Part shown: one piece after another, positions 30,684-61,100 of the stretch
Position numbering within the stretch: the first letter of the stretch is position 1
How the letters are laid out: each line of letters begins with the position of its first letter
DNA from: Taeniopygia guttata
Taxonomy: Eukaryota; Chordata; Aves; Passeriformes; Estrildidae
Assembly (NCBI RefSeq): GCF_048771995.1
Contig: NC_133033.1
Span: 3,038,501-3,102,500 of the forward strand
Length of the DNA stretch: 64,000 bases
Direction of reading: 5' to 3'
Program-made: the position numbers and the translations under genes
Notes under the pieces: model-generated
The model's input: the letters and a program-made list of their open reading frames with translations, nothing else
Told to the model about the DNA's origin: nothing
Database searches by the model: none

Positions 30684-30790
30684 TGGGATGGGATGGGATG
30701 GGATGGGATGGGATGGGATGGGATGGGATGGGATGGGATGGGATGGGATGGGATGGGATGGGATGGGATGGGATGGGATGGGATGGGATG
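30684..30790. repeat. (GGGAT)n pentanucleotide tandem array, about 21 copies
   Basis: An almost perfect 5-bp repeat about 107 bp long. The + strand carries runs of GGG separated by two bases, a G-quadruplex-compatible layout. Reading frames across it give WDGMG or SHPIP repeats and are not genes. The high purity suggests recent expansion and likely length polymorphism. Confidence 0.97.
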
Positions 30791-36890: not shown

Positions 36891-37118
36891 ATAGAAACTC
36901 TGCTCAGTTTTCTCAAGTTCAATATTCTGGTATTTCTGGTGCATCCTGCATATGTAGAAGCCGCAAAATTTGTCTTGGGGAACAGAGGCATCAGCTCGGA
37001 GAGGGGACAGATGGTGAACGTTACGGAGACCAAACTACAGCTCAATCTTCCCAGAGAGAGCAGGTCCTGCAAGGTAGGAAAAGTGGTTTTAAATGAGACC
37101 TTGAAAGTTGGAATATGA
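36891..37118 (+). pseudogene. FREM1-like fragment 1: signal peptide and N-terminal domain, start codon lost
   Basis: The frame runs open from upstream to a TGA at 37116. From 36891 it gives a short leader (IETLLSFLKFNILVFLVHP), a hydrophobic signal-peptide-like stretch ending near AYVEAA. Then come GNRG (FREM1-type NRG motif), a spacer, and LQLNLPRESRSCKV followed by VVLNET. This matches the FREM1 N-terminal pattern in which a hydrophobic-strand, IPKEK..CKVEVV.NEP stretch follows the signal peptide. The codon where an initiator would be expected (36891-36893) is ATA, a possible ATG to ATA change. No in-frame ATG precedes it nearby. A GTAGGA at 37074 looks like a donor, but homology (VVLNE) continues through it, so I do not treat it as the exon end. 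After LKVG the frame meets TGA and homology stops, where the family would continue with the conserved LTPQVFDCHF region. The frame is open upstream of 36891 too, but that part shows no similarity. Confidence 0.66.
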
Positions 37119-37195
37119 ATGGCTTGGGTAGGGTACTGTTCTGATGCTGAGGGGGAAGAGGTGGTCTGAGGACAGCACCTTGAGCATGGAAAATT

Positions 37196-37208
37196 GGGGG
37201 GGGGGGGG
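37196..37208. repeat. G13 homopolymer
   Basis: Thirteen G in a row, about 80 bp past the end of FREM1-like fragment 1. Sequencing length may be unreliable here. Confidence 0.9.
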
Positions 37209-40062
37209 AGCTGGTGTCAGAGGAGCTGGTGTAGAGATCATCAACTGCTTTGAAGGCTTAATAAGTCACTTTAAACAAAAGTGTGCTGTTGGTTTAGGTG
37301 AGTTCCATGCTTTTCACAGGGAAAGTTTTCTCCCACCCCACCCTGCAACAGATGTCATTCCCTGAATTGAGAGTTCATAAAGCTTTTAGAAAACTTCTGT
37401 TTAATTTTTAGGCTTTATTATTGTACGTCAAGATGGTTTTATTTGCCATGTTATTGTTCCTAGTGTAATTGCTCTTGCAATTAGAAAAGATAATTGATTA
37501 AGTAATAGCTACAGTTTTGAGTTTATTGTGTTTCAAAATATCTACATTTATATTTTTCCTTAAAATTTTGCAATTAAATTTAAAAAAACCCCATAAACCA
37601 GCAGCATATTTCTATACCAGCTCCTGCAGGCTGTCTGTAGGATGTCTGGGTTGAGGAGCTTGAAAAGGATATGTATATGCTCCTGGAATATAAATTAATC
37701 CCTAACTTCTCCAAGTCAAATTCACTATATCCTTTTTTTATCTTTTCAGAACAAGGGAAGATATCAGTCAAATTGTCACAAATATGCCCCAAACTGTTGT
37801 GAAAGAGCAACTGATTTCCTAAATTAATCTGTAAGGTATGTTTTCAGATTTCAGAACCCTCTTCTTAACCTCGGTTCCACAAATAGCTTTATGCTGAGAT
37901 GAAGTGGAGACAAACACACAATAGAACTTTCTAAGCAGAACTGCTGAGAGGTGTGTGCTATATCCTCTCATAGCAACCATAGGCCCAGCTCAGCTTTGGA
38001 GGCTGAATGGATCCAATGCCATGGTTTCCATGGTTGCACAGGGTTTCATGTACCCAATAATATTAATATTCCGGTCCTTCATAGAATAACTTGTGCAAAG
38101 ACAAATTTTCCTCTTTATTTCCTATCTTAAATTATTGCTGTCTTAATGACTGAATGAAGTTACAAGATGAAAGTTATTCTACTAAAGCTTAAAATGCTGT
38201 TGAGATTGTCTTAGCATGAGCTCAAGCCTGCAGTACTTACGTAAGCAAAATTTCAGGTGCCTCCTGAGACAACACTGTTGGATTTGGCTGGTAAAATAAT
38301 GATGTTTTTTTCTCTCTACCAGTTGTTGCTACCATTTATCTTCACAAAAATTTTGATTGCCACTAAGAAGTTAATAATACTGACAATGGCTGACCAGTTT
38401 TTGGAAGAAAACAGTGCAGGTCTGAGAACTTAGAAGTGCAAACTCAGTTGTGATAATGTGATTTAAATTTTAAGCGAGCGACCTCTTTTGTGTTTCAATA
38501 CTGAGTTGGAAGTAATCATTGTCCTTGCATTTTTTGCCACCTAGGGTTTTCCAAAGCTCACCCTGTTGGAAGCTGCCCACCACCTCATTTTTTCTGTCCA
38601 TCTGAAAAACGTCAGTTGTTAATTAAGAGCTGTGGTAACTCTTACAAGAACAACACCTCACACAAGTGTCAAAGAAACTTCTTGACAAATATTGATCTTC
38701 TTGGGTAGCTCCAGCTGACTGGGACTTCCCTACACCTTAAAATCCCAAGTCCTTGGGGTGAATGACTCCTTTCAAGGTGACAATAACTTGCAGGTGTTGT
38801 CCCATTTCTGGGACAGGCCATGGCTGAATGAGGGGTTGAGTCATGGGGAAAACTTGCTGTGGGCATCATGGAGCTATTTGATTTACAGGAGAAAAAAATG
38901 TTCTGGCAATCCTTTTTTGATGTTTCAAGGCTCAGTGGGATAACCATCCCTGAAGCATAGGGTGTAAGTACCTAAGTACAACAGAACAAAAGATGCAGAG
39001 GTCTGAAGAGAGCTCTTCAGAAACAGAACAGAAAGCTCCCAGAAACTGTCCAAATGAATGCAACGTTGATATTTATAATGGTTACTTGCTACTGAGCTGT
39101 AATCAGTGCTGACTTGTGGCCTCTGCTCTTCAACTGAAAGTCTGAGAGAGCATGTAAAGCTCTCTAAACCTTCCAGTGATTTATCTGAAGTGTTTATTAT
39201 CTGGCTCCCAGATGTGTATTAAAGCATGGTTTACAAAGAAAAGCTCCATGTGCAAAAGGATTCCATTTTTAGCTTGTGTAAACTGTTGTTTCCCCACCAA
39301 AATCAACCAAGTTGCTGTGTAATGTCCCCCAGCAAAGGATCTGCTCTCCAACCAAGGTTTAGTTATTGTTCTTGGCTGTGTCCAGAAATATTTCAGAGAG
39401 TGCTGGAGCTGGACTCTGAATGCCTTCATTCACTGTATAAATGATCAAAGGAGAGGCTTCTTGATCTTGTGTGTAATAAATCCTCTGCTTTCAGGTCTGC
39501 TGAACTGGAGACTATCATAGAAATACTTGTTCCTCATGTACAGACCAGGAAGCTGGAGTCAAGTATTCCTCCTGTTGGACAAATGCCTCTGGAATTCCAC
39601 AAATTGCTTGGCACATCTGACAGAGCAGGCAGAAGAATGCCAGCCTTCGTTTCCTGTAGTCTGCCTGCATGGAGCGTGGCTTTGGAGGCACTGCTCCCTC
39701 CTTCAGGTCAAGTTGTGGCAGGGGAGAAGAGGCATCTACCTGAATATCTGAAAAAATGAAACTAGAAGGAAAGATTTGAAAGCAAATCTTGGCATAAATT
39801 GGAATCTTGGAATAAGTGTTGGAATAAGCTTATTTTTGGACTTAAAAGTGTTTGTTGTAGAAGCATTGCCTAGATTTTTAACAAGGGTTTGTCTTAGCTT
39901 GCAACTCATCTAGCTTTCTTTTGCATCTTGAAGGTGTCTTTACAAATAGTGGTAAAACAAAAGAAAAACTGATGTGGAAGAGTTTAATGGATCTTGAAAG
40001 AAAATAAAGTTGTGGCCTTCAGGTACCTGAACTCCTAATAACTTTCTGTGGTCTTGTAATGA

Positions 40063-40106
40063 ATCTTGTCAGTATCTTGTCAGTGTCTTGTCAGTGCCTT
40101 GCCATT
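40063..40106. repeat. 11-bp minisatellite, about 4 copies
   Basis: Units ATCTTGTCAGT, ATCTTGTCAGT, GTCTTGTCAGT and a decayed GCCTTGCCATT follow one another without gaps. Confidence 0.85.
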
Positions 40107-42304
40107 AATAAATGATATAGGAAGGAAATAGTTGTTTATCACAGCCCCTGTCCATTTTTAGCTAAAAACATGCCTGTGATTACCTGTCTGAATTGAATTA
40201 ATTTTATTTATAAAAAGTAGACAAGGGGTAGCTTGCTAATGGGGCTTTTTATCTAATTGGGACTGGATCTGAAGTAGCTATGTCCACAATTACACCCTTT
40301 TGTGAATTTGAAAATCCTATGGGTTTTTAACCCTGTGGAGAGTGTATACATCATTCCCGTGCAGAATTCCAGTTGTCCAGATTAAAGAGCACAAACTGGA
40401 CTTTTGAAGTTTTCCAGGGCATATCATCCATGCCATGCCTTCCTACACTTAGCTGACATAACTAATAAAAAAAAGTGCCAAAATCTGGGAAATCCATGAC
40501 TGGATTGCTCTGTGCATCTATGCTAACCTGTGTATCACTTTTCTTTGTGCAGTTGTTCAAGAGTCTATTGGAGAATCCTGCCCTTTCAAATGGGAGTTTT
40601 GCCAGCTGCATTAACTGGGACAAGATTATTGACTGTCTGAGGCAAAGCTTAAAAGGTCATTGTTGTGTTTAACTGTTAATTCTCTAGCATTATCCCAGTA
40701 ACTTGTTGATGCTTCCAAGAGTTGCTTGATGTCTATATATATACACACAGCCACACGTGTGCTCTCGCCTGCCTTTGGGAATTCCCTTGCCCTTGCTAAC
40801 GTGAGTGCAAAGATTCACTGGGCTTTTTATTCATAAATAGAAAATGTTTGGACTTATGTACTGATAAAGAGAGATATTACAAACACAATGTGAAGCTGCC
40901 TTTGTGTCTATGTTCATCTCAGAAGCTCAGCAGCTCACCCTTGCACACCGACGGCCATGGCTCAAGATGCTGAAGATGCAGAAACAGCAAAGGGAAAAAG
41001 TAACGTTGCTCATTGCTAATCCCCTGCTGGAGGGGTGGCTCACCCGTTTGGAGGGCTGTGCACAACCCGTGACATCCCTCACTCGGCAGGATCTCTGTGA
41101 TCTGAGAATTGGTACCTGCCACCCGATGTGTCTCCTGCTGCCAGACAGGTCTATGAAGTAATGGAGCCTGGCTGTCTGCAGTCAGCACTGCTGTGCTACA
41201 TCCAAAGCAAGCTTGCCAGTCAGCAAATGCTGCATTAATCTTTCAGGGAGTGTTTGTTTTGCTTGTTTTGCTAGGCTGAGTTTCAAGCAACTGATAATGT
41301 GCTCATGAGCAGTTCTCCTGTTGCAGCCCATTTTTCAAAAGGAAGTGTGAAGGCCAAAGCTCCCAAGGTTGGGTAGAACATGGGTTGGGAGGGTTATATA
41401 TGGTCTTGCCACACTGTGTGAGCTCACAGTGCTTTTGAGTGCATGTTAATACACCTACAGGTACATTTGGGACAGTGGAGTAGTGGCTCTTTGAAGTCTG
41501 ATGAGTGTTTTAAAAATACACCTTGGACTTTGTTCCTCTCTGTTAGTACTAATTCTGCTTGTGGAGTAATCTCTGCAAATGAGATGTACTTTTGTTTGCT
41601 GAGCAATAGCCAAAGCTTCTGACTGCTGAAGTAGAAACTCTGAAGGCTTCTGAGGGTTAGATAAGACAAACATTTTACAGGTCACAGGGTTTTAAGTGTT
41701 GAAATGCCTGGAATTTCAGGAGGAAAATGACAGTGAGCCTGGTTTGTTCCCACTTTTCCCTGCTGTGTTGCTGCTCTGTCCAGCTGCAGCACTGAAGTTA
41801 CAGCTCTCACTTAAAGGCCCATCCCTCCAAGTCTTTTTGCATTTAGCTCCGCTAAGCAAAAAGGAATTTAGACATACAAATGAATTTCAGAATGTGGAAA
41901 ACTCAAGTCTGGAGACTCTTGTATGTGCAGAACCTTTTCTGGACTTTTTTTGGTGTTTTTTATTTTAAGATACTCCATGCTCTTTGATGACTTGAAAAAT
42001 AAAAATCTTGCAACATTTTCACAAGTGAAGAGAATTTTAGCTCCCAGAGTGAGAACAGAAGGATGCACTGTGATCTTGAGGTCTTTTAGCCTGCTTACGT
42101 AGTCTGAAAAAATGTGGCTGGGCAGTGAGTCTGTTGCAAAATGACAATTTTAATGGTGCTGGGATAAGACAAATCCTGTGGATATTTCACGTGCCATACT
42201 TTTCCTACAAACTTTTCTGAGAGTCAATGTTTTACATAAAATCTATTCTGCAAAGAGTACTCCAAAGGTAGTGCTACACACAACAGTACTTTTAAAAGTG
42301 TATT

Positions 42305-42319
42305 AATATATATATACAT

Positions 42320-42360
<41 letters not shown>
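42305..42360. repeat. (TA)n/(TACA)n microsatellite
   Basis: Alternating TA with interspersed CATA units over about 55 bp. Confidence 0.9.
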
Positions 42361-42362
<2 letters not shown>

Positions 42363-42545
42363 CCTCTGCTTAAATATTAAGTGGGAATATACTTCAAGAA
42401 GGTTTTGAGTGGAGAAAAAAGGGTAATAATTAGGTGCTTTTCTCTTTTCTGTCTTTTAGTTTGTGAAAATTTTCCTCACTTTTACTGTTACCCTAATCTC
42501 GCATCTTTTCCTGCTCACAATAAGGGGGATTATAAGGCAGAAATG

Positions 42546-42584
42546 AAAAAAAAAAAAAGAAAAAAAAAGAAAAAGAAAAAAATA
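42546..42584. repeat. A-rich tract with scattered G
   Basis: Runs of A broken by single G. The lysine-rich reading frame over it is not evidence of a gene. Confidence 0.85.
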
Positions 42585-43064
42585 AGTGTGTTCTTAAATA
42601 CAACAGTTGGAGAGCTGTTTGTACACATTTCCATGTTTCTTTCTGGTTTTGGATTAAGTTTCTACTCCAAAGTTCCAATTTCCTGGTTAACATATTGTTC
42701 TGGAAGGACCCCGGGCTCATGCAGACCTGGCACACGGCAGGCAGGCTGGCTCAGTGGGGAAAGCTGTTGCTTTTCCTTGCCTGCTGCAGACACAAGCACT
42801 GTGAGAATTCCCTTGGTACAGGAAAGTGTTGTGCTATTACACTCAACATTTATTGGATACTTCCTCCAGGCTCAAATAAACATTATAAAACCTCCCTTCC
42901 CCAAATGAATCGCTTAAAGTGGATACAAGAGAGGATGTGGCATCTTGGATTTTGCTGTGTGGCTCTTTGTGAACAGCAGTGCAAATGCTTATTATCAGCC
43001 TTCAGTTTTTATATGCATGGGTGTGATAGGGCTGGGCTGTGCAGTAGTGCCCTGCTGTGTAGGA

Positions 43065-43336
43065 TACACAGGACAAGAGGGAATGGCCTCCAGTTGTGCC
43101 AGGGGAGAGTTTAGATTGGATATTAGCAAACATTTCTTCACAGAAAAAGTGTTTAAACATTGGGACAGGCTCCCCAGGGAAGTGGTGGGGTCACCATCCA
43201 AGAGTGGAAGTGTTCCAAAAGCGAGAGACAATTGACAGCAATCCATGGTATGGTTTAGTTGACAAGGTGGTACTTGGCTGACAGCTGGACTTGATGGCCT
43301 TGGAGTCTTTTCCAGCCTTGGTGATTCTGTGATTCC
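43065..43336 (+). mobile_element. CR1 LINE 3' end
   Basis: Contains the CR1 series GGACAAGAGGGAATGGCCTC, TTTAGATTGGATATTAG, ATTTCTTCACAGAAA, ACAGGCTCCCCAGGGAAGTG, GGACTTGATGGCCTTGGAG, CTTTTCCAGCCTTGGTGATT and ends GATTCTGTGATTCC. It is 5'-truncated with moderate divergence. The small reading frames over it are by-products of the repeat. Confidence 0.9.
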
Positions 43337-43888
43337 CTGATCCTCTACAGACTGCTGCCCATGGTTACCTGAATGCTGTCCAGCTCCTGCTGGTGGAAGG
43401 TCCCCAGCACGGATGGATCATAGTGTGAGGTGCTGTGTTGGATCTGGGCTCAACTATGGGATGCAATGCAACACCTACAGAATATAGGCACATTTTATCT
43501 TGTTAAACCTACCCCAATCATCTGCCTAGTCAAGGTTAGACTTTTTTGCATGTGTCTCAGAAAAATTAATAGAAATTCTTCTAAAAGAAACATAAGATTT
43601 TCACATCTTTTGGAACTTCTGCAGTGAGAGCCTGCAGAGTTCAGGCTTGTTACTAAGAACAGCCCAATGTATATTTGAGGGTGAAAAAATAATCATGTCA
43701 CTTCTTTGGAACGTGATCTAAAGTTCACTGAAGTGAATGAAAAGGCTCCTGTTGGTTTTAAGTGGCTCCAGCCTTTACACGGGGAACAGAAGACGTGTGT
43801 CTCATCTGCTTAAATTTGAAAATGTTATTGGTAATTTGTGTTGATAGAAAGAGCACATGGTAACTTTCTTTCTGCATTTATATAACAG

Positions 43889-44204
43889 GAGGCAAAAGCC
43901 TCGAGTTTGAAAACATTTGAGGATGCAGTTGCCTATTTCCAGCACGATGAGAGAGACACAGCCAAGGATTGGGCTGTTTTAAGAATATTTGATGGAAGGC
44001 AAAGCATTAGGCACTGGTTTCCCCACAGGCAATGGTTTCCTATTGTCATCCCACCATCAGATGACAACCTGATGAGCAATGTCACCTTTAAGCTTGCAAA
44101 AGGGAAGATAGTTCTTCCTGAAACAACTACATTGATGTTTTATTTGTGGGTTTAATTCAAGTGATTATTATATTCTCACTGAAACAACCAAGTCAACAAG
44201 TGCT
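43889..44204 (+). pseudogene. FREM1-like fragment 2: junction of CSPG repeats 2 and 3, frameshifted and interrupted by CR1
   Basis: An acceptor-like TTTATATAACAG ends at 43888 and the exon frame opens at once. Key motifs are AYFQHD, then DWAVLRIFDGRQSIRHWFP (the end of a CSPG repeat, matching the FREM1 pattern D..V.RIFDG.HSIRHKFPI), then SDD and NVTFKLAKGKIVL (the beginning of the next repeat). The frame hits TAA at 44153. In the next frame similarity resumes at 44160 with SDYYILTETTK, matching the FREM1-type SDDYIFFNITK. The gap between the two blocks is 22 nt where the family has seven residues, so one extra base explains the shift. An 18-bp imperfect duplication (44010-44040) adds six residues within HWFP/QWFP. 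At about 44205 the sequence changes abruptly into a CR1 3' end. These defects together mark it as non-functional. Confidence 0.78.
44010..44040 (+). repeat. Imperfect 18-bp tandem duplication inside FREM1-like fragment 2
   Basis: GGCACTGGTTTCC (44010-44022) and GGCAATGGTTTCC (44028-44040) differ at one base with an 18-bp offset. This adds six residues (HWFP then QWFP) relative to the family pattern. Confidence 0.6.
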
Positions 44205-44377
44205 GGAGGTTATCAAGGAATCCACTGCAGATGGGCCAAGTAGGTGCTGCAGCCTGGGGAGGTCCCCTGGTACTGCTCTGTGATGGAGTGAGTAGTGCTG
44301 GGCTGGCAGTGCTGGGCTCATGGCTGGAGTTGATCTTCAAGACCTTTTCCAGCTGCAATGCTCCTGTGATTCAATGA
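44205..44377 (+). mobile_element. CR1 LINE 3' end inserted into FREM1-like exon
   Basis: Starts with the CTGGAGGT(A)TT-like segment of the CR1 3' region and runs through GGCAGTGCTGGGCTCATGGCTGGAGTTGATCTTCAAG, i.e. the CR1 'agttggactcgatgatctt' box, then ACCTTTTCCAGCTGC and TGTGATTCAATG. It is 5'-truncated, as is usual for CR1, and diverged. It begins right after the codons for SDYYILTETTK of the FREM1-like pseudoexon, so it sits inside former coding sequence. Confidence 0.7.
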
Positions 44378-45153
44378 CAAATGTTTGGGAGTGCAGGACT
44401 GAGCTGTCCACACAGCTGAAAATGCCTAACTGATGTTGGTCCCCCGGTGTGATGGATGGGGTTATCTGGGGCTTGAATTAATACAGGAGTAAAAGGAGAA
44501 AAGAAAAACAGCAGGCGAGTGCCTAAAAGGATCTGTGCTGTATTTTTAAGATATCCCTGTGTCAATCTGCTTGCAAAGCAATCTCTTCTACAGCCTTGTC
44601 TACCATCATTTTGAAGAAGAGGTCTTTTCATGACTCACTTAAATTCATTTTATCTGACAGTCAAGAACTGCCTAATCTTTGATGCTCATGTAATTACGGC
44701 TTTTTTTTTAATATAATGACATAGCATTCAAAATATTTGAAAGCCATGCAGAGAAATATTGCATAATAGGAAATTGTGCAGGAATGAGAACGTTGGAGCT
44801 ATTCATCTGTAATAACAAAATGCTTCTGTTTTACACAAATGACTTGATTAAAATAAAGACTTGCTCTGGATTTTCATCAGTATTAAAAGAGGTGAAAGCA
44901 AAAGCAAAAAGACCAATTGAATTTTTATTTTTCTTCTTTTTTTTTTCTTTAGGTATGCTGTTTCAAATCATTCCTTGCAACACTTTAACAAATATAGAAA
45001 ATGAACAGAAATGTCAGGACACTGGAAAAAAACAATGCTTGAAAGAGAATTTTTATGAACTGATGAGCTGAGAGCTGAGCTGGTACCAGTAGAGTGGGAT
45101 CAGTTTGGATTTCCACATTTTTCAGCCATCTTTTAGACTGTTCCCTTGTGTTA

Positions 45154-45312
45154 CATGAGCCAAAGCGAGCCTGGAACTACATGCAACTCGTTGTCAAAGA
45201 AACTTGCACCATCACAAGGCGTCAGCTCTGCTCTCCAGAGACCAAATCTCCAGACAATCAACTTGTGTGTGCTGTTAATGCTTTGTTTCTCTCACTTCTC
45301 CCATGTATATGA
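45154..45312 (+). pseudogene. FREM1-like fragment 3: start of CSPG repeat 4
   Basis: In one frame the segment reads HEPKRAWNYMQLVVKET, then TITRRQL, then SPDNQLV. The FREM1 pattern here is a proline-rich linker, LVVKET, ITKKQL and S.D.ELV, marking the beginning of a CSPG repeat. The match keeps order and spacing apart from a two- to three-residue loss between LVVKET and IT. The frame ends at TGA 45310-45312, before the aromatic-rich continuation expected in the family. No convincing acceptor was found directly upstream, and the linker residues are only loosely similar. Its place between fragments 2 and 4 on the same strand supports the assignment. Alone it would be weak. Confidence 0.6.
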
Positions 45313-48300
45313 AACTGTCAAGCTGAATTACACTTTATAAGGTGATAGGGAAAAGATCTAACATTTCTTTTTCCCTTTTACAAATTTTTACAGTGTGTGG
45401 AAGCTAATGTTTGCAGCCTAAAAGCCAACCAAACAAAACAAATCCTGTTGCTTCAGACCTGACATCTTTCAGGTAAACAAGAAAAGCTTTTGACATAATT
45501 TGCAAGTATTATTACTATAATTTTTTTAAAGCTCTGCTTTCATAGAAAGGTCCTGGGAGAGGCATGAGAACAAATTTTGCTTATTGGAATCTAAATTTTT
45601 AAGTTAAAATGCAACAAATAAGCACAAAAGTAGAAAAAAGGCAGAAGCCTAGCATCACCTTCTCAATCCTGTTTCTGACTGTTGAAGTCAGTGCAGCCTC
45701 ACTGCATAGAACAATATTCCAAATCAGTGCAGAGATTGGAGAATTCCTCCATGGTTCTTGCAAAAAAAAGGACCAAAATCAGTGAATTTCTTAGTGTTTC
45801 ACTGAAATCTGTCCAATGAGGACTCGAGTGCTTTCCAGCAACGTGAGTCACTTTCTTTTTTGATAATGGACATGCCTCGTATTTCAAAGACCGGCACAAG
45901 CTCCTGGGTTCCCCATGGCAAACAGCAGGAATTGTTCTCACTCCTGTTACTCTGCAGAGTAAGATCTTAGCAGTTTCTGTGCCAAACCAGTCAAACCCCA
46001 TCTCTGATTTCACCCAATAAAAAATGAAAATGGAGAGCTGTGCCCACTGCTGGTGTTTCTCTTCCTTTCCAGCACTTTGACACATCTGGCAGGAAAGTTC
46101 ACTCAATTAAGTGTTTTCTACCTCTCTATCTTTTCATGGCATTGCTCGAAATATCCAGGTTTGGCAATTCCTTTGCTGAATAATAAGCCCTGAAGATTCT
46201 TCCACATATTTATTGCCTGACTTAGTCCTATAGTTTTTGAATGCATTTGTATTATACCATTGTGTAAGCAAGCTCCTGCTAAAGTCAGAGCATAAAGCTT
46301 ATTCAAGGTGCCTGCATTCCTTGAAAGGATCCAGGCAAGCATTTTCTCCACAAATCCAAATTATTCATCAAATTTATTCCATCTGGGATTTGTATGTGTG
46401 CATGTATTCTTTGTTAAGTGTTCTAGCAAATACTAAAATACCAGCTAGGTTAAGGGGATGAGCAAAATTCCTGTCAGTGTTAAATGAATATTTGCGGAGG
46501 GTGGATTTTGAGTGTGCTGTGTAAAGCTTATAATGCTCAAGGCTATATTCTTCAGCTAACTGGTTAAACTCTGCCCTGAGACCAATCTACCCAGAATAGT
46601 GGGAAAGCAGAAAAGCAAGAGTTACTTGTAGTGAAGAAAATACAACCACAGGAAAGGATTATTTGAAAAATTAAAACAAGCAGTTGAAGTCTGGGAGTCG
46701 TTCAAGAGGCTTCACTGTTTCCAACAGCAAATTGTCTATGAAGAGAACTAAAACAACCTATTCTTTTGTTTTCCAAGCACCTTCAGTAACTTGTAAGATT
46801 TGTGTCAGACTCCAAGTAGAAATTTATCTCCAATTATATTCAAAAGAATAACAATAAAAGCTTGGTGAAAGGAAAACAATACTGAAGCTTTGTCAGTCAG
46901 CTCAGTAGTTTTAATTTCTATGTTTTTTTCGGAAGGATATTTTTAAAACTCTGAACCCATTTTCTCTTCTGTAGAAATACTGCATCATCTTGTTCTTGTT
47001 TTTCTCAAAATCACATTTTAGCTGTGTGCCTCTAGCTATTAACCCTGTGGATTTCTTTCAGATAGAAGAAAGATTGATTCCAGAAATCCACAAGCCTCAA
47101 AAGCCACCACAGTGGGGTAATACCCCACTTATCCCCTATTTCTGATGGCACAGAGGAAAGCATCTTTGTCCTCTATTACTGAGAAGACACAGCAGCTTCA
47201 CTTCTAACTCAACAGTCTTAGATAGACAGGTACCATTGTTTTTCTTGTATTTTTTGTCCATCTCTCCTGTCAAGTGACAAGATTGGTCTTATTCCAACAG
47301 CACAGACACACCTGCTGAGCACCAGAGAACCCCTTCCAGGCCCAAACTGAGGGCAGGTGCACTGGTGGAATGGTTGGTCCTAGGACGGTCCTCCCTGGAT
47401 GCAGCAAAGGAAAAGCCTGCTTCATGCTCCCATGAGGATCTGAACGTTTTTATAGTTAATAAACCTCCTCTTTCCAGTTTCATTGATCTGCATGGACTTG
47501 CCAAGGTGGAAGGAGTTTTGTTTGCGGGCTTTTAGAATAAATTAGTTTGAGTTCTGCCCGTAAAATTCTCCATAGCTGGTTACTACCCAGAGTTTCAAAA
47601 ATGGACCCTCTGCTTTGGGATCTGGGGGGAAGTGAAGCTTGTATCTTATCCATTACTGTGTAATGGTGTCTGAAAATTCATATTTCTCTTTTAATGGTTT
47701 AAAAAGGAGCCTTGTAGTTTTGCAAGGACAAATCCTAGCAGGGCAAAGGGAAGTGGAGGGAGCAGAGTTCAGAGAAGATTGTGACATAAGCTTTGCTTTC
47801 TGTTACCTGCAAGCACATTTAAACCAGCTGCTGCTGTATTAAAGAGGGGGTTTCTTTAACATATAAGATATATGCACAAAAATATGATATATTTATTCTG
47901 AAAATTTAACTGAGCATTTAGAAATAGCACCCTCTGCTTTAGATCCTTCTCAAAGGCAGGAACGACCAGAACATTTCTCTTGCCATTTCAGCAGGGGACA
48001 GCCCAGTGCTAAGGGTCCAGCACAGCCATTCCTCCTCAGACGGGTGAGCAATTCCCAAGGTTTGACATCCTGCCCCACCAGAAGCTTTGGCCATGGGACA
48101 CACCCTTAGCTCTGTGCTGTCTGCACACCCTGATGTGCATGCCAGTCATGAAGCCACTTCTCTTGCCCACCTCCACCTGGTAGAATAAAGCTGAGGGACC
48201 AGGTCCCCATGGGAGGTGTTAACAAAACATCAGTGAAACCAGTGGGACTGGTGGTGATAAATCCAGAGCCCAGGGTAATACTTCAAGTGAGAGAAGCCAA

Positions 48301-48372
48301 CATGATCAATTGAGATAGTGGGCAATGCTTGACCTCAGCTCTTCCCTTGCTCCCCTCCCCTCATATTTATAG
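45313..48372. other. Intron-like sequence between FREM1-like fragments 3 and 4
   Basis: The remainder of CSPG repeat 4 and the first half of repeat 5 would be expected here. Nothing convincing was recognised. A 135-codon frame on the minus strand (45699-46106) has no recognisable motif. Confidence 0.45.
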
Positions 48373-48522
48373 GTTTCTAATTTCCGCTGGATAATGAATA
48401 TCACTTTTCATTATAATTATGTTAAAAGGTACCAGCGTGATGATTCAGAAACCCTTGAAGATATAGTCATATTTTCAGCAACAGATGGATTTAACACTGC
48501 AGATGGAGTGTTAAGAGTGCAG
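48373..48522 (+). pseudogene. FREM1-like fragment 4: end of CSPG repeat 5, intact exon with splice sites
   Basis: A 150-nt block, exactly 50 codons, open throughout and flanked by a pyrimidine-rich acceptor (CTCCCCTCATATTTATAG, ending 48372) and a consensus donor CAG|GTAATA at 48523. Motifs: FRW (FSW in the family), VKRYQRDDSETLEDIVIF and SATDGFNTADGVLRVQ. These fit the CSPG repeat ending F.W.DL....VRYQHDGSE.L.D.....TDG.N.A...L.V.V as found in FREM1. Both splice phases are 0, so the exon could be skipped without shifting frame. It is the best preserved piece of the locus. Taken alone it could pass as a functional exon, but the damage in fragments 1 and 2 argues that it is only less eroded. 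Confidence 0.72.
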
Positions 48523-56700: not shown

Positions 56701-58005
56701 CAATTCAACAAAGCATTTTAACCTGGACTTTTTTAAGGTACACGAGAAGTTGTTCCGTGTCTGCACACAGCAATACACATGCTAAGGCATTATTTACATG
56801 GGGTCTGAGTAATCTGTAAAGGACTTGGAGAAATTTAATAACAAATATGAAAATTACTGATTAAGAAACTATTTATGCATCCTTTCTTTTAAAATTCAAT
56901 TTTCAAGGAAGTAGAAATTTTTGCATTAAATGTTAGTTTTTCTGGGAGATTTTTTTGTTGAGGTGCCATAAGGAGTAAATACTAGATAAAAAAATAGTAA
57001 AGTAAAAGAAAGCTAATGCTGGAGCAAAGGAAAACCTTTGAAATATCACTCAAAAATTTTCATTTGTTCAGTATCAGCACTCTGATTAGAGCAATACTAA
57101 TGTGCATTGTGCATAAGAAGAGCTATTCTGAGTCTAAATTGGTGACACAGGCAGGGGACAGTTTAACCTCTGGCATTAGCTAGAACTGGGCAGTGACAGG
57201 AGCCAGTGCAGCAGTGCTAATTAATGCACCCTGAGGGGACACAACGAGGCATTGGCCCTGTACACCTGAGACATACTTCTGTCAGCACTGAGGTGCCAAT
57301 TACTGTTCTCTCATAAAAATAACCCATGTTAAAAAAATAACAAAAAGGCAAAAGTCCAAGTAATGTAGGTAAGATTTAGCCATAAAATTATCAAGTGGAT
57401 TCTGTAATAATGCATCTCCCCAGTTTATTAATACAAGGCAGGATGAGCTCTGTTGTAGCTGCTGTTATGGAAATTCAGAAGCTTTGTTGCTGGACTGGGC
57501 AGCAGCACCTTTGCTAAGCTCATTTACCCTAGCTTCTCTGAGACCTGACAGCTCTCACTTCCTTCACCTTGGAGCAAACTCCACTGGAGAGCAAAGCTGA
57601 ACCTCTCAGGGCCACCACTGCAGAGAGAGTGGAGGTGTCTGGGAAAGGATCTCTGCCTACACTGATGGTGGACACAGAAAAAAACTCTTTTGGACTGGAC
57701 AAGAAACCAGAAATTCCTATTTTACTTCTAGCTAAACATTAGCAGTACATTGTCCTTTGTAGGTGCTCAATTTCAAATAATTTAGTAATATAAATCCCCA
57801 AACACTCAGCAGTCCTCCAGCTGAAAACCACTGCAAAGAAAACCAAGATGCTGTGGGAGTGCTTTGTCAGATGGCACATTCTTGATAACCAAGGCAGGGA
57901 AGAGATTTGTCCACACTAGAGGCATATTAATGTGGGTTTTTCTCAGCAGGTGCTTTTTGGGGTGAATGAGGAACATTAAGCATGTATCCAATTGAAACAT
58001 CTCAG

Positions 58006-58124
58006 TGTTTTTGAAGAAGACCTCAAGGATCTTAACTGCACATCAAATGCAAACCCTGAGTATAGCTTGCCAGAAAATGCTCTTACCCCAGCTGGCTCAA
58101 GAAGATCAATGCTGGAATTGATAG
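58006..58124 (+). other. Weak exon-like block
   Basis: A 119-nt open block bounded by CATCTCAG and a donor-like ATAG|GTATAT. Its translation is hydrophilic with serine and acidic residues (FEEDLKDLNC, LPENALTPAGSRRSMLELI). The composition looks more protein-like than neighbouring frames, but the upstream pyrimidine tract is poor and no family was recognised. Confidence 0.22.
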
Positions 58125-61100
58125 GTATATACCCTACAATATGTTGCTTTTCCTCTAAAAAATATTTTATTAGAGTTTAATATGGTAATAGTGCCTGGTT
58201 GTATGGGGCACTACTTTACAGCTGGTGGATGGTAGAAAAGAGGAACCATTTGGCAAATCAGGCCAGACCAAATAGCATTCATTTGGTTAATCACCAGCTA
58301 TTAAAATAGCATCAAATCATAGCAACCTATTTGCTTATAATTCAGTGCACAATTTTCTGCACAGTATATTCATAACTGCTGTACCCAAGCTAATTTTAAA
58401 TGAGCCAACAAAGCCATTTTCCACCACTCCCCTGGGAAATGAATCTGTGGACTGATGGATCTTTCTGCTTCTGGGGCTAAGCCCCCACAAAATCTGAGCT
58501 GATGACATTGGTGGTTTGACTTTGAAACAAACTGATTTCAGATTTAGTCTATTTTTTTAAAGCTTGGTATGGTTTAAATCTCTTGCATTCCTCCAAGATT
58601 CATATAACTTCCAGTGCCTAGAAGATTATACCCATTATGTGCTCTTCAAACATGCAAACATTCAGGCATCATTGCAAATTACTTTGTGAATTCTATTAGA
58701 GACAACCTTCAATAGTTCCCTGGTGGTTCCTCTCTTTGTCACCATGAATTCATCAAACAACAATATCCCTCTCCTTCTAAATCAGGAATATATCAGTATG
58801 GTCTTAAAATTGAATTTGGTCTTTAAAGAGTTGAGCCTTTATTTCTGAGAACTGATCCTCACTGCTGTACAGCTGTGGGGAGCAGAATGGCAGAGCTGTG
58901 GCCTGTGCAATGATGAAATATTTTAAGTAGGGAGGAAAGAAATTGATGAAGGTATGTTAGTAACATGTACACAATGAAGTTCTGTTGTTTGTAAATATTG
59001 TGCACACTGTTGTTTTTCTGTATTGCAGTAAAGTTTTTAATGAGCCTCTGGGCTCAGTAAAAGTTGAGCAATGAGTGTTACTTGCCCCAAACACTTCTGT
59101 TGTATAAACAAACAAATGGACAGTCCAAAATTTCTCCTCTGGTACTGCTGGTGTCCTCCCAGGCCAGCTTCCCCACCTTTAATTTAGCTGCAGAGAAATG
59201 AGGACAAACTCTGGCTCTGAAGGCAGACCCAGCCTTGCACATATTCCTGAGTGTCCACACTCATGTCAGCAAAACAGGTACGTGCTTGCTTTTAGGGATG
59301 CAGTGGGATACGGTGGGATACAATGAAACCTCAGAGCCATCTTAAGGGTATCTGAATCCTTGGCTTGGCATTTCATTCTGCACGTCAGTTGATTGGTCAT
59401 TTTATCACTAGTTATGAAGTGAAATTAGATAATCTCACTGCCATATGGTATAGAGTATTTATAGTTTAGTATGTTTTCCATATATGTGCACTAAAGCCTG
59501 CTTCAGGGATTTGTTACGGTCCTTGTGTTTACAGGATTTGGGTCTTGGGTGAAAGAAGAAATTGACAGTTGCTAATGTTTGATTTAAACTGATACTTCAG
59601 AGGCCACATGAGTGATCCCTAATTAAAATCAATTTACACTTTCTGTCCTTTGCCAGGGAGGCTGGCAGGGCTTTCCAGACCAGAGCTCATGTCCACCCAG
59701 CTCTGCTCCCCCTAGCAGCAATCAGGAAGGGGTGACTTCAGGGGACAGGGGGAGAGGCCTGTGGAATGCTGAGAACGTTTAACCTCTACCTCAGCTCTCC
59801 TCCCAGACAACCAGGAGTACCCAGGGACTCTCCAGCTCTCTCAGGTAACCTGAACCCTGAAGCATCTCTCCAATGATTTTTCTCTATGTTAGGTTTAACT
59901 GCTAATTTCTTGCTTTCCATCAAAACGCTCTACTCCCCTTGAAATTTTGATAAATAAGGAGCTACAGAATTAATTATGTGGGACATTAGTCATTCAATAT
60001 GTGTCATTATTGTCTCAAAACAAGCCTAAATGAACACCACAGAAGGGTGTTGGAGATCTGCATTTGGAGCTCACCCAGATGTGATAGAAGAGGAGTGTAT
60101 TCTCAAAACAAAACATTGCCTGGTACAGACACCAGTGCTGGGGAGTTGTATGGTGTAAATACCCCTCATACAATTTTCTGACTGCAAAATTATGCTAAGC
60201 TTTAGAGCACTTGTGTGGGTCTGCTTGAGACCTACATCCCCCACTCCTCATCTGTCTCTGCTGCCATGTCTTGGTCATTTTAAGTTGCAATGTCAGACAC
60301 AACAGAAACTGGCTGAAGCTCAACCAGCCATTTTTAAAAAGTGGTAAATAATAGTAAAAAACAACAAACTCTGAGAGAGGAGAAGCAATTTTCAATCACC
60401 CTGTAAGAACCCTGTGAGCACTCAAAGAAAGAGGAGTTAATAAATGTTAGAGTCAGGTTTTTTTTGGATAGGATTCTTGCAGAATATGATTTCATAATCC
60501 CCTGTCTCTAGTGAACAACAAGACCTCTGTAAACACTCAATATTCAAATAGAAAATTGTTTCTTGTAGGCTTCCATGGCACAAAATAAAAGCTCTGTAAA
60601 TCTGGGCCTCCATATGTGGTTCTCAGCTGGTGTAAGTCCCTGAATGAATTACATGTGAACAGAGAAATTAATGCTATGCACATGGTGGCCAAACTTGAAA
60701 GCAGAAATTGCAACTGAGGATATACTGCAGTGGATTGTGAAATTTTTGAAGATAAATGGAAGCTTGAGTCCTTGTTTATGTAATGCAATATCGATGCATT
60801 TCAAGGGACAGACAGCTATCACAGTGAGATACTACAATACTGAGATCACATTTGGGACAATAAAGGGATTTGCTCTTTAAAATCAAAGACTGAAATTAAA
60901 AAGGCAAATATTCAATAATCCAATGTAACTTTGAACAAAAAATTGGGCAAAATACTTCCCCCCTTTTTAAATCTATCAAATTGCCGTGGCAGTAAATGTA
61001 TATGCTATCCATGTTTTGAAATGATTGTGCTCTAAAGCCACTTTTGTTAATCAGTCAACGTTGATGATGAATTACCCACGAGTTTTGGTACTTTACAAAG

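Follow-up and report, generated by a model that had tools for sequence, protein, structure and literature searches.

Remains of a probable second FREM1-class gene on contig C10 of the zebra finch genome

FREM1-type exons on contig C10

We analysed a stretch of 64,000 nucleotides from Taeniopygia guttata (contig NC_133033.1, here called C10, positions C10:3038501-3102500; this whole stretch is the window) together with the genome that contains it (1,140,912,852 bases in 41 contigs). The window holds the first part of a decayed gene of the FREM1 type, which continues past the window end. FREM1 is part of the Fraser complex, which holds embryonic skin to the underlying tissue, and its loss leads to blistering and malformation. 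Exon numbers given here are our own numbering of the coding exons of the open FREM1 gene on a Z-like contig, C40. The human FREM1 used as bait and comparator, here called the bait human FREM1, is a provisional sequence of 2179 residues with Arg at 1481, two features that PMC4009816 gives for human FREM1.

Reading frames of at least 20 codons were compared between C10 and C40. Among the 70 matches in total, many of which are repeats, FREM1-type fragments follow the exon order of FREM1 along about 62 kb of the C10 + strand. Exon profiles built from bird FREM1 and the bait human FREM1 were run on 9002 reading-frame fragments from both strands of a 174 kb stretch of C10 (the window with 40 kb upstream and 70 kb downstream). 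Nine of the 34 exons (1, 5, 7, 8, 9, 14, 20, 23 and 29) gave in-order + strand matches with E<0.01, including E 7e-29 for exon 23 and E 5.7e-5 for exon 29. The remnant runs to C10:3137174, 34.7 kb beyond the window end, and spans 3.075-3.137 Mb. In a frameshift-tolerant alignment that made no use of splice sites, a colinear chain on the + strand took in 22 of the 34 exons with a score of 783, against 69 (11 exons) on the - strand, and none of 1000 permutations of the exon order reached 783 (permutation maximum 649.5).

The first-pass annotation of this DNA had recognized FREM1-type motifs in four fragments on one strand and in protein order. These are the equivalents of exons 1, 8, 9 and 14, on the + strand and in order. 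The interval it assigned to the gene, 36891..48522, is at the right place and too narrow, as more exons lie between and beyond the four fragments. The features found in the window are as follows (window coordinates):

36891..37127, + strand: exon 1 equivalent (hydrophobic leader, N-terminal segment), E 1.6e-6; in-frame TGA; donor GT at the homologous position
38349..38435, + strand: weak exon 2 equivalent, score 39.0 versus a best opposite-strand score of 49.5; carries stops and a frameshift; no acceptor AG, while the donor GT keeps its homologous position
39495..39732, + strand: weak exon 3 equivalent, score 41.5 versus a best opposite-strand score of 43.0; the acceptor AG keeps its homologous position, and no donor was found
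40837..41157, + strand: exon 5 equivalent, E 2.5e-6; four frame changes; acceptor AG absent, donor GT in place
41275..41383, + strand: exon 6 equivalent; both splice dinucleotides in place
43063..43337, + strand: CR1-like repeat directly preceding the surviving half of exon 7; outer boundaries estimated
43369..43429, + strand: exon 7 equivalent, 3' half only, E 0.0053; in-frame TGA just before the homologous donor GT
43889..44207, + strand: exon 8 equivalent, E 2.1e-11; donor not found
44551..44679, + strand: exon 9 equivalent, matched in two frames (E 0.0011 and 0.0069) with one frameshift between them; the acceptor AG is at its homologous position, the donor is not
45155..45276, + strand: weak exon 10 equivalent, placed by position only, score 43.5, equal to the best opposite-strand score; one frameshift
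48429..48522, + strand: exon 14 equivalent, E 4e-8; open; both splice dinucleotides in place
57956..58119, + strand: weak candidate for exon 17, with a stop and a frameshift; no splice site at its exact position
58633..58795, + strand: weak candidate for exon 18, with a stop and three frame changes; the donor GT keeps its homologous position

Sixteen of the 34 exons were counted as supported (1, 2, 3, 5-10, 14, 17, 18, 20, 22, 23 and 29). Exons 2 and 3 were kept because a splice site lies exactly at the expected place, and exons 10 and 17 for their position together with a modest score. Six chained exons were not counted. Exons 12 and 31 are within noise; exons 24 and 26 each beat 19 control intervals with only 40 and 15 aligned residues, respectively, and exon 33 beats 8 with only 18. 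The best interval match of exon 24 is itself spill-over beside exon 23. Exon 16 scores 47.0 in order and has a higher out-of-order match on the + strand (57.0). Exons 4, 11, 13, 15, 19, 21, 25, 27, 28, 30, 32 and 34 fell outside the chain, with nothing above noise in their intervals, and no convincing match to exons 30-34 was found in the 35 kb searched downstream. Several further matches with E<0.01 were rejected: the exon 23 site also matched exons 5 and 15, and the exon 20 site matched exons 8 and 18, which are cross-hits between similar CSPG repeats, and the matches of exon 2 on the opposite strand (E 0.0038) and of exon 16 out of order are chance matches. Exon 2 also scores 39.5 at two further places on the + strand.

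We then compared the exon ends with those of the gene on C40, whose boundaries were read by hand. At ends aligned to within 4 residues of the C40 boundary, the exact splice dinucleotide is present in 16 of 21 cases (7/10 acceptors and 9/11 donors), against a background of 5-6% at neighbouring positions (joint P ~1e-16). When all 35 tested ends are taken, however far extrapolated, 17 are exact (P 6e-13); the test omits the exon 22 acceptor, the exon 24 donor and exons 26, 31 and 33. Even weak exons such as 2, 3, 6, 7, 18 and 22 gain support from the splice match, which shows that C10 once held a spliced gene with the exon-intron layout of FREM1. The possibility of a retrocopy was rejected, since introns separate the remnant exons.

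Relation of the remnant to FREM1

An open FREM1 gene lies at C40:73311592-73367534. All 34 of its exons read open, giving 2103 residues, verbatim and without stops, after trimming by hand of exons 12, 22, 24 and 25, where the bait match had run into flanking intron with stops. The gene model is incomplete, in that no exon on C40 matches residues ~1935-2007 of the bait protein. C40 is a contig of 82 Mb with FREM1, NFI and TTC39 genes, and its content fits the Z chromosome. FREM1 is Z-linked in chicken and zebra finch (PMC12524454 and PMC11628666), and NFIB is on the Z in chicken (likewise PMC12524454). The first-pass annotation had expected birds to keep a working FREM1, and the open copy on C40 bears this out for this bird; with FREM1 there, the C10 locus is therefore a paralogue. 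The reading that C10 is the only FREM1 locus of this bird, so that FREM1 itself was lost, is refuted by the 34 open exons, and we give it practically no weight.

Directly before exon 24 of the Z FREM1 (piece L022, C40:73331298 and upstream), we found an open N-terminal reading, MVNREQMLKTALPLFA, that closely resembles the human and mouse TILRR N-termini presented in PMC4009816. From this likeness, the TILRR start seems to be kept in this bird.

The family of the remnant was examined in several ways. A genome-wide Pfam search for Cadherin_3 (the CSPG repeat) gave 51 matches, at loci on C1, C40 (73.33-73.36 Mb and 54.73-54.76 Mb), C12, C5 and C10; the single C10 match, at 3119459, lies 17 kb beyond the window end. 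Most of the matches on C1 belong to a single exon of 1766 codons, that of FREM2. In a Pfam scan of five open reading frames, the exon 23 equivalent matched Cadherin_3 (E 5.6e-9, 36.4 bits, above the 25.5 cut-off) and the exon 20 equivalent stayed under the cut-off with 21.4 bits, while the window reading frames of exons 1, 8 and 14 had no Pfam match. All five remnant exons tested score highest on bird FREM1, above FREM2 and CSPG4-like loci (92 versus 61 bits for exon 23 and 58 versus 29 for exon 8), in a comparison that covered these three groups. Searching the genome with the exon 23 peptide at E 0.001 recovered, among the best candidates scored, only the peptide itself, FREM1 (48%) and FREM2 (39-41% identical). 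Proteins of the FREM1 class also have a Calx-beta domain and a C-terminal C-type lectin; exon 29, in the Calx-beta region of FREM1, is matched in the remnant, while exons 30-34 gave no convincing match in the downstream 35 kb. An affinity to FREM2 was rejected because of the lower scores and because FREM2 has one exon of 1766 codons where the remnant has many exons. Thus, the assignment to FREM1 made at first by motif recognition holds, through the best scores of all five exons and the many-exon layout.

Another Cadherin_3 locus on C40, at 54.73 Mb, was rejected as a FREM gene on the strength of one of its pieces, L003 (C40:54730400-54733714). This piece has a hydrophobic segment near the end and a C-terminal QYWV tail, and by that tail it looks CSPG4-like. 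A separate long Cadherin_3 reading frame on C12 is probably CSPG4.

Across 12 exons, the remnant is 40.4% identical to bird FREM1 (266/659) and 40.7% identical to the bait human FREM1 (267/656), while bird and bait human FREM1 are 73.8% identical to each other over the same exons (484/656). In the 166 columns where these two FREM1 sequences differ, the remnant agrees with the bird in 31 and with the human in 34. This equal distance indicates that the duplication preceded the split of mammals and birds; had the copy been made within the bird line, it would be expected to agree more often with bird FREM1. When the 174 kb stretch of C10 was compared at the DNA level with 90 kb from C40, only 8 short matches emerged, none of them at matched exons, so the remnant is not a recent copy.

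A recent origin of the remnant from this bird's FREM1, whether as a degenerate copy on the W or in some other way, is very improbable. The Z-linkage of FREM1 (PMC12524454 and PMC11628666) means that W-linked remains could exist, and one CR1-like repeat match is common to the exon 6-7 intron at both loci. Against a recent origin, C10 has its own NFI, HOOK, p450 and TTC39 genes, the remnant is as close to the bait human FREM1 as to bird FREM1, and intron DNA is unalignable beyond the 8 short matches. The common repeat match is one of these eight (window 43116-43269, a 71% match to one repeat copy on C40). Relative to the gene, the repeat points one way on C10 and the other way on C40, which indicates two separate insertions and not one inherited, and that C40 copy also has a match elsewhere on C10, away from the remnant gene.

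Lesions and age of inactivation

The C10 locus, a formerly spliced gene with disabling lesions, is most likely a unitary pseudogene. At the start position, 36891, there is an ATA, and the first ATG of the frame comes only beyond the hydrophobic stretch. Exons 1, 2, 6, 7, 17, 18 and 22 contain stops, and exons 2, 5, 8, 9, 10, 17, 18 and 22 contain frame changes; the stops of exons 1, 6 and 7 and one of those of exon 2 were read between the alignment end and the splice site. In exon 6, a TAG stands at the position of a Trp codon in the Z gene. The 5' half of exon 7 was searched for in its interval and not found. The acceptor AG of exon 8 is 5 bases off the position predicted by the alignment, so that one frame change must lie between it and the aligned exon; a second frame change and an insertion lie further in, inside the aligned part. 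Several of these defects had been noticed in the first pass. The lost start, stops (such as the TGA of exon 1, ahead of its donor) and the insertion of a CR1-type element (the CR1-like repeat at ~43063-43337 beside the truncated exon 7) were all found again, and the single frameshift described there proved to be a real disruption of the frame and an undercount, with two frame changes in exon 8 and one in exon 9.

Altogether, 9 stops and 14 frameshifts were counted in 882 codons. The stops correspond to a neutral divergence of about 0.08 substitutions per site (0.036-0.141 over exon resampling; 0.05 in a stricter 11-exon set). With neutral rates of 1.5-3e-9 per year, this suggests, as a rough estimate, that the gene was inactivated about 27-54 million years ago, with the caveat that strongly decayed exons are not countable and that decay is uneven, exons 20 and 23 having kept an open frame and both splice dinucleotides while others are gone. 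If this date is right, the gene would have died well after the origin of living birds.

Another possibility is a working but fast-evolving gene whose lesions are an artefact of forced alignment to FREM1. In exons 14, 20, 23 and 29, the aligned part is free of stops and frameshifts, and exons 14, 20 and 23 keep both splice dinucleotides. Such a gene would nonetheless lack a start codon, carry stops in exons 1, 2, 6, 7 and 22 as well as a frame disrupted twice in exon 8, and retain only half of exon 7, with many further exons not found, and we consider this reading improbable. Exon 23 of the dead gene (L014:6936-7200, C10:3119436-3119700) is fully open with both splice sites kept, while other exons were not found.

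Chromosomal neighbourhood, origin and known relatives

We then investigated the neighbourhood of the two loci. The genes lie in the following order:

C40: NFI gene 73.005-73.038 Mb (matched exons only), FREM1 73.312-73.368 Mb, TTC39 gene 73.415-73.429 Mb
C10: NFI gene 2.640-2.683 Mb, remnant 3.075-3.137 Mb, p450 genes 3.2006-3.2225 Mb, HOOK gene 3.230-3.237 Mb
C10, further off: TTC39 gene 6.086-6.103 Mb

At least three copies of the p450 gene, probably of CYP2J type, stand in tandem adjoining the HOOK gene (C10:3200587-3222539). A third contig, C32, has NFI and HOOK genes within 0.1 Mb. By comparison with the human gene maps, we take the C40 neighbours to be NFIB-FREM1-TTC39B, those on C10 to be NFIA-CYP2J2-HOOK1 with TTC39A, and the C32 pair to be NFIX-HOOK2. 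The human NFIA-CYP2J2 interval is not known to hold a FREM gene. The four NFI loci with 0.45 Mb on either side make up 0.3% of this genome. Thus, the remnant lies on a duplicated segment of the FREM1 neighbourhood, as expected of a copy from the early genome doublings (2R). The window also contains a perfect pentanucleotide array, 21.4 copies of TGGGA at 30684-30790.

We named the C10 locus FREM1L, and consider it the unitary pseudogene of a second FREM1-class gene that most likely goes back to the early vertebrate genome doublings (probability roughly 0.85). The idea of a separate paralogue, already raised from the broken fragments, is borne out by the equal distance to both FREM1 sequences and by the synteny. 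In the proposed history, the genome doublings would have copied a segment with an NFI gene, a TTC39 gene and the ancestor of FREM1. One copy would have become FREM1, beside NFIB and TTC39B (on the Z in birds), and the other FREM1L, with NFIA and HOOK1 as its neighbours on C10. Like FREM1, it presumably coded for a CSPG-repeat protein that was secreted into the basement-membrane matrix. It would have been inactivated in this bird's line through start loss, stops, frameshifts, splice-site losses, missing exons and the CR1-like insertion, with FREM1 retained; redundancy with FREM1 may have let it decay.

Alternatively, one segmental duplication that postdates the genome doublings and precedes the mammal-bird split might have placed a copy of FREM1 near NFIA by chance. 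A four-sequence tree joins Z and human FREM1 apart from the remnant with only 58% bootstrap support, which leaves the date of the duplication unfixed, and the orientation relative to the NFI gene is unlike that at the FREM1 locus. A landing within about 0.4 Mb of a paralogous NFI gene, on a contig with TTC39, HOOK and p450 genes, would however be a coincidence, and we regard this history as unlikely.

Several points weigh against the origin of FREM1L in the genome doublings, or against the remnant as we delimit it. The orientation of FREM1L relative to its NFI gene is opposite to that of FREM1 relative to NFIB, which calls for an inversion, and the distance of 3 Mb to the TTC39 gene on C10 likewise needs a rearrangement. 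The low support in the tree counts here as well, and the case for an ancient duplication was not rested on it; the equal-distance comparison, in turn, relies on the provisional human sequence. Eighteen of the 34 exons are unsupported (12 outside the chain and 6 chained but uncounted), and exons 2, 3 and 10 score no higher than their best opposite-strand match. The genome evidence is also from this one genome.

In the open-licence literature that we searched, neither a FREM1 paralogue next to NFIA nor the loss of a FREM1 paralogue in birds turned up. FREM1L may be a new FREM1-class gene, dead in this genome, of which annotations of other vertebrates may list an intact copy under an automatic name. 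A wider reading, which we put forward tentatively and hold at a little under even odds, is that the genome doublings left jawed vertebrates with two FREM1 genes, and that the copy on the NFIA side still works in some birds, reptiles or fish, in fish perhaps as frem1b. Mammals would have lost it, and in this bird's line it would have died only tens of millions of years ago. FREM1 would then be left alone in the dermal-epidermal matrix complex. A second FREM1-class gene from the genome doublings that lasted long enough for its exons to be readable in a living bird would, if real, change the history of the family, and the redundancy between two FREM1 genes could differ among vertebrates.

The remnant is like FREM1 in its exon order, splice positions, CSPG (Cadherin_3) repeats, N-terminal segment and exon 29 match, and in having NFI and TTC39 genes on the same contig. 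It is unlike FREM1 in being only about 40% identical, in lying on another contig, and in having lost its start, its frame and many exons. FREM2 belongs to the same family and also has CSPG repeats, but carries them in the one 1766-codon exon on C1. Zebrafish frem1b is, like FREM1L, a second frem1-class gene; according to PMC2855323, it is partly redundant with frem1a, and its knock-down has no visible effect alone and enhances blistering in frem1a mutants. Unlike the remnant in this bird, frem1b is a working gene and a fish gene; it may derive from the same doubling, with a place near nfia, or from the doubling specific to fish. If FREM1L does descend from the genome doublings, fish frem1b need not be a duplicate confined to fish.

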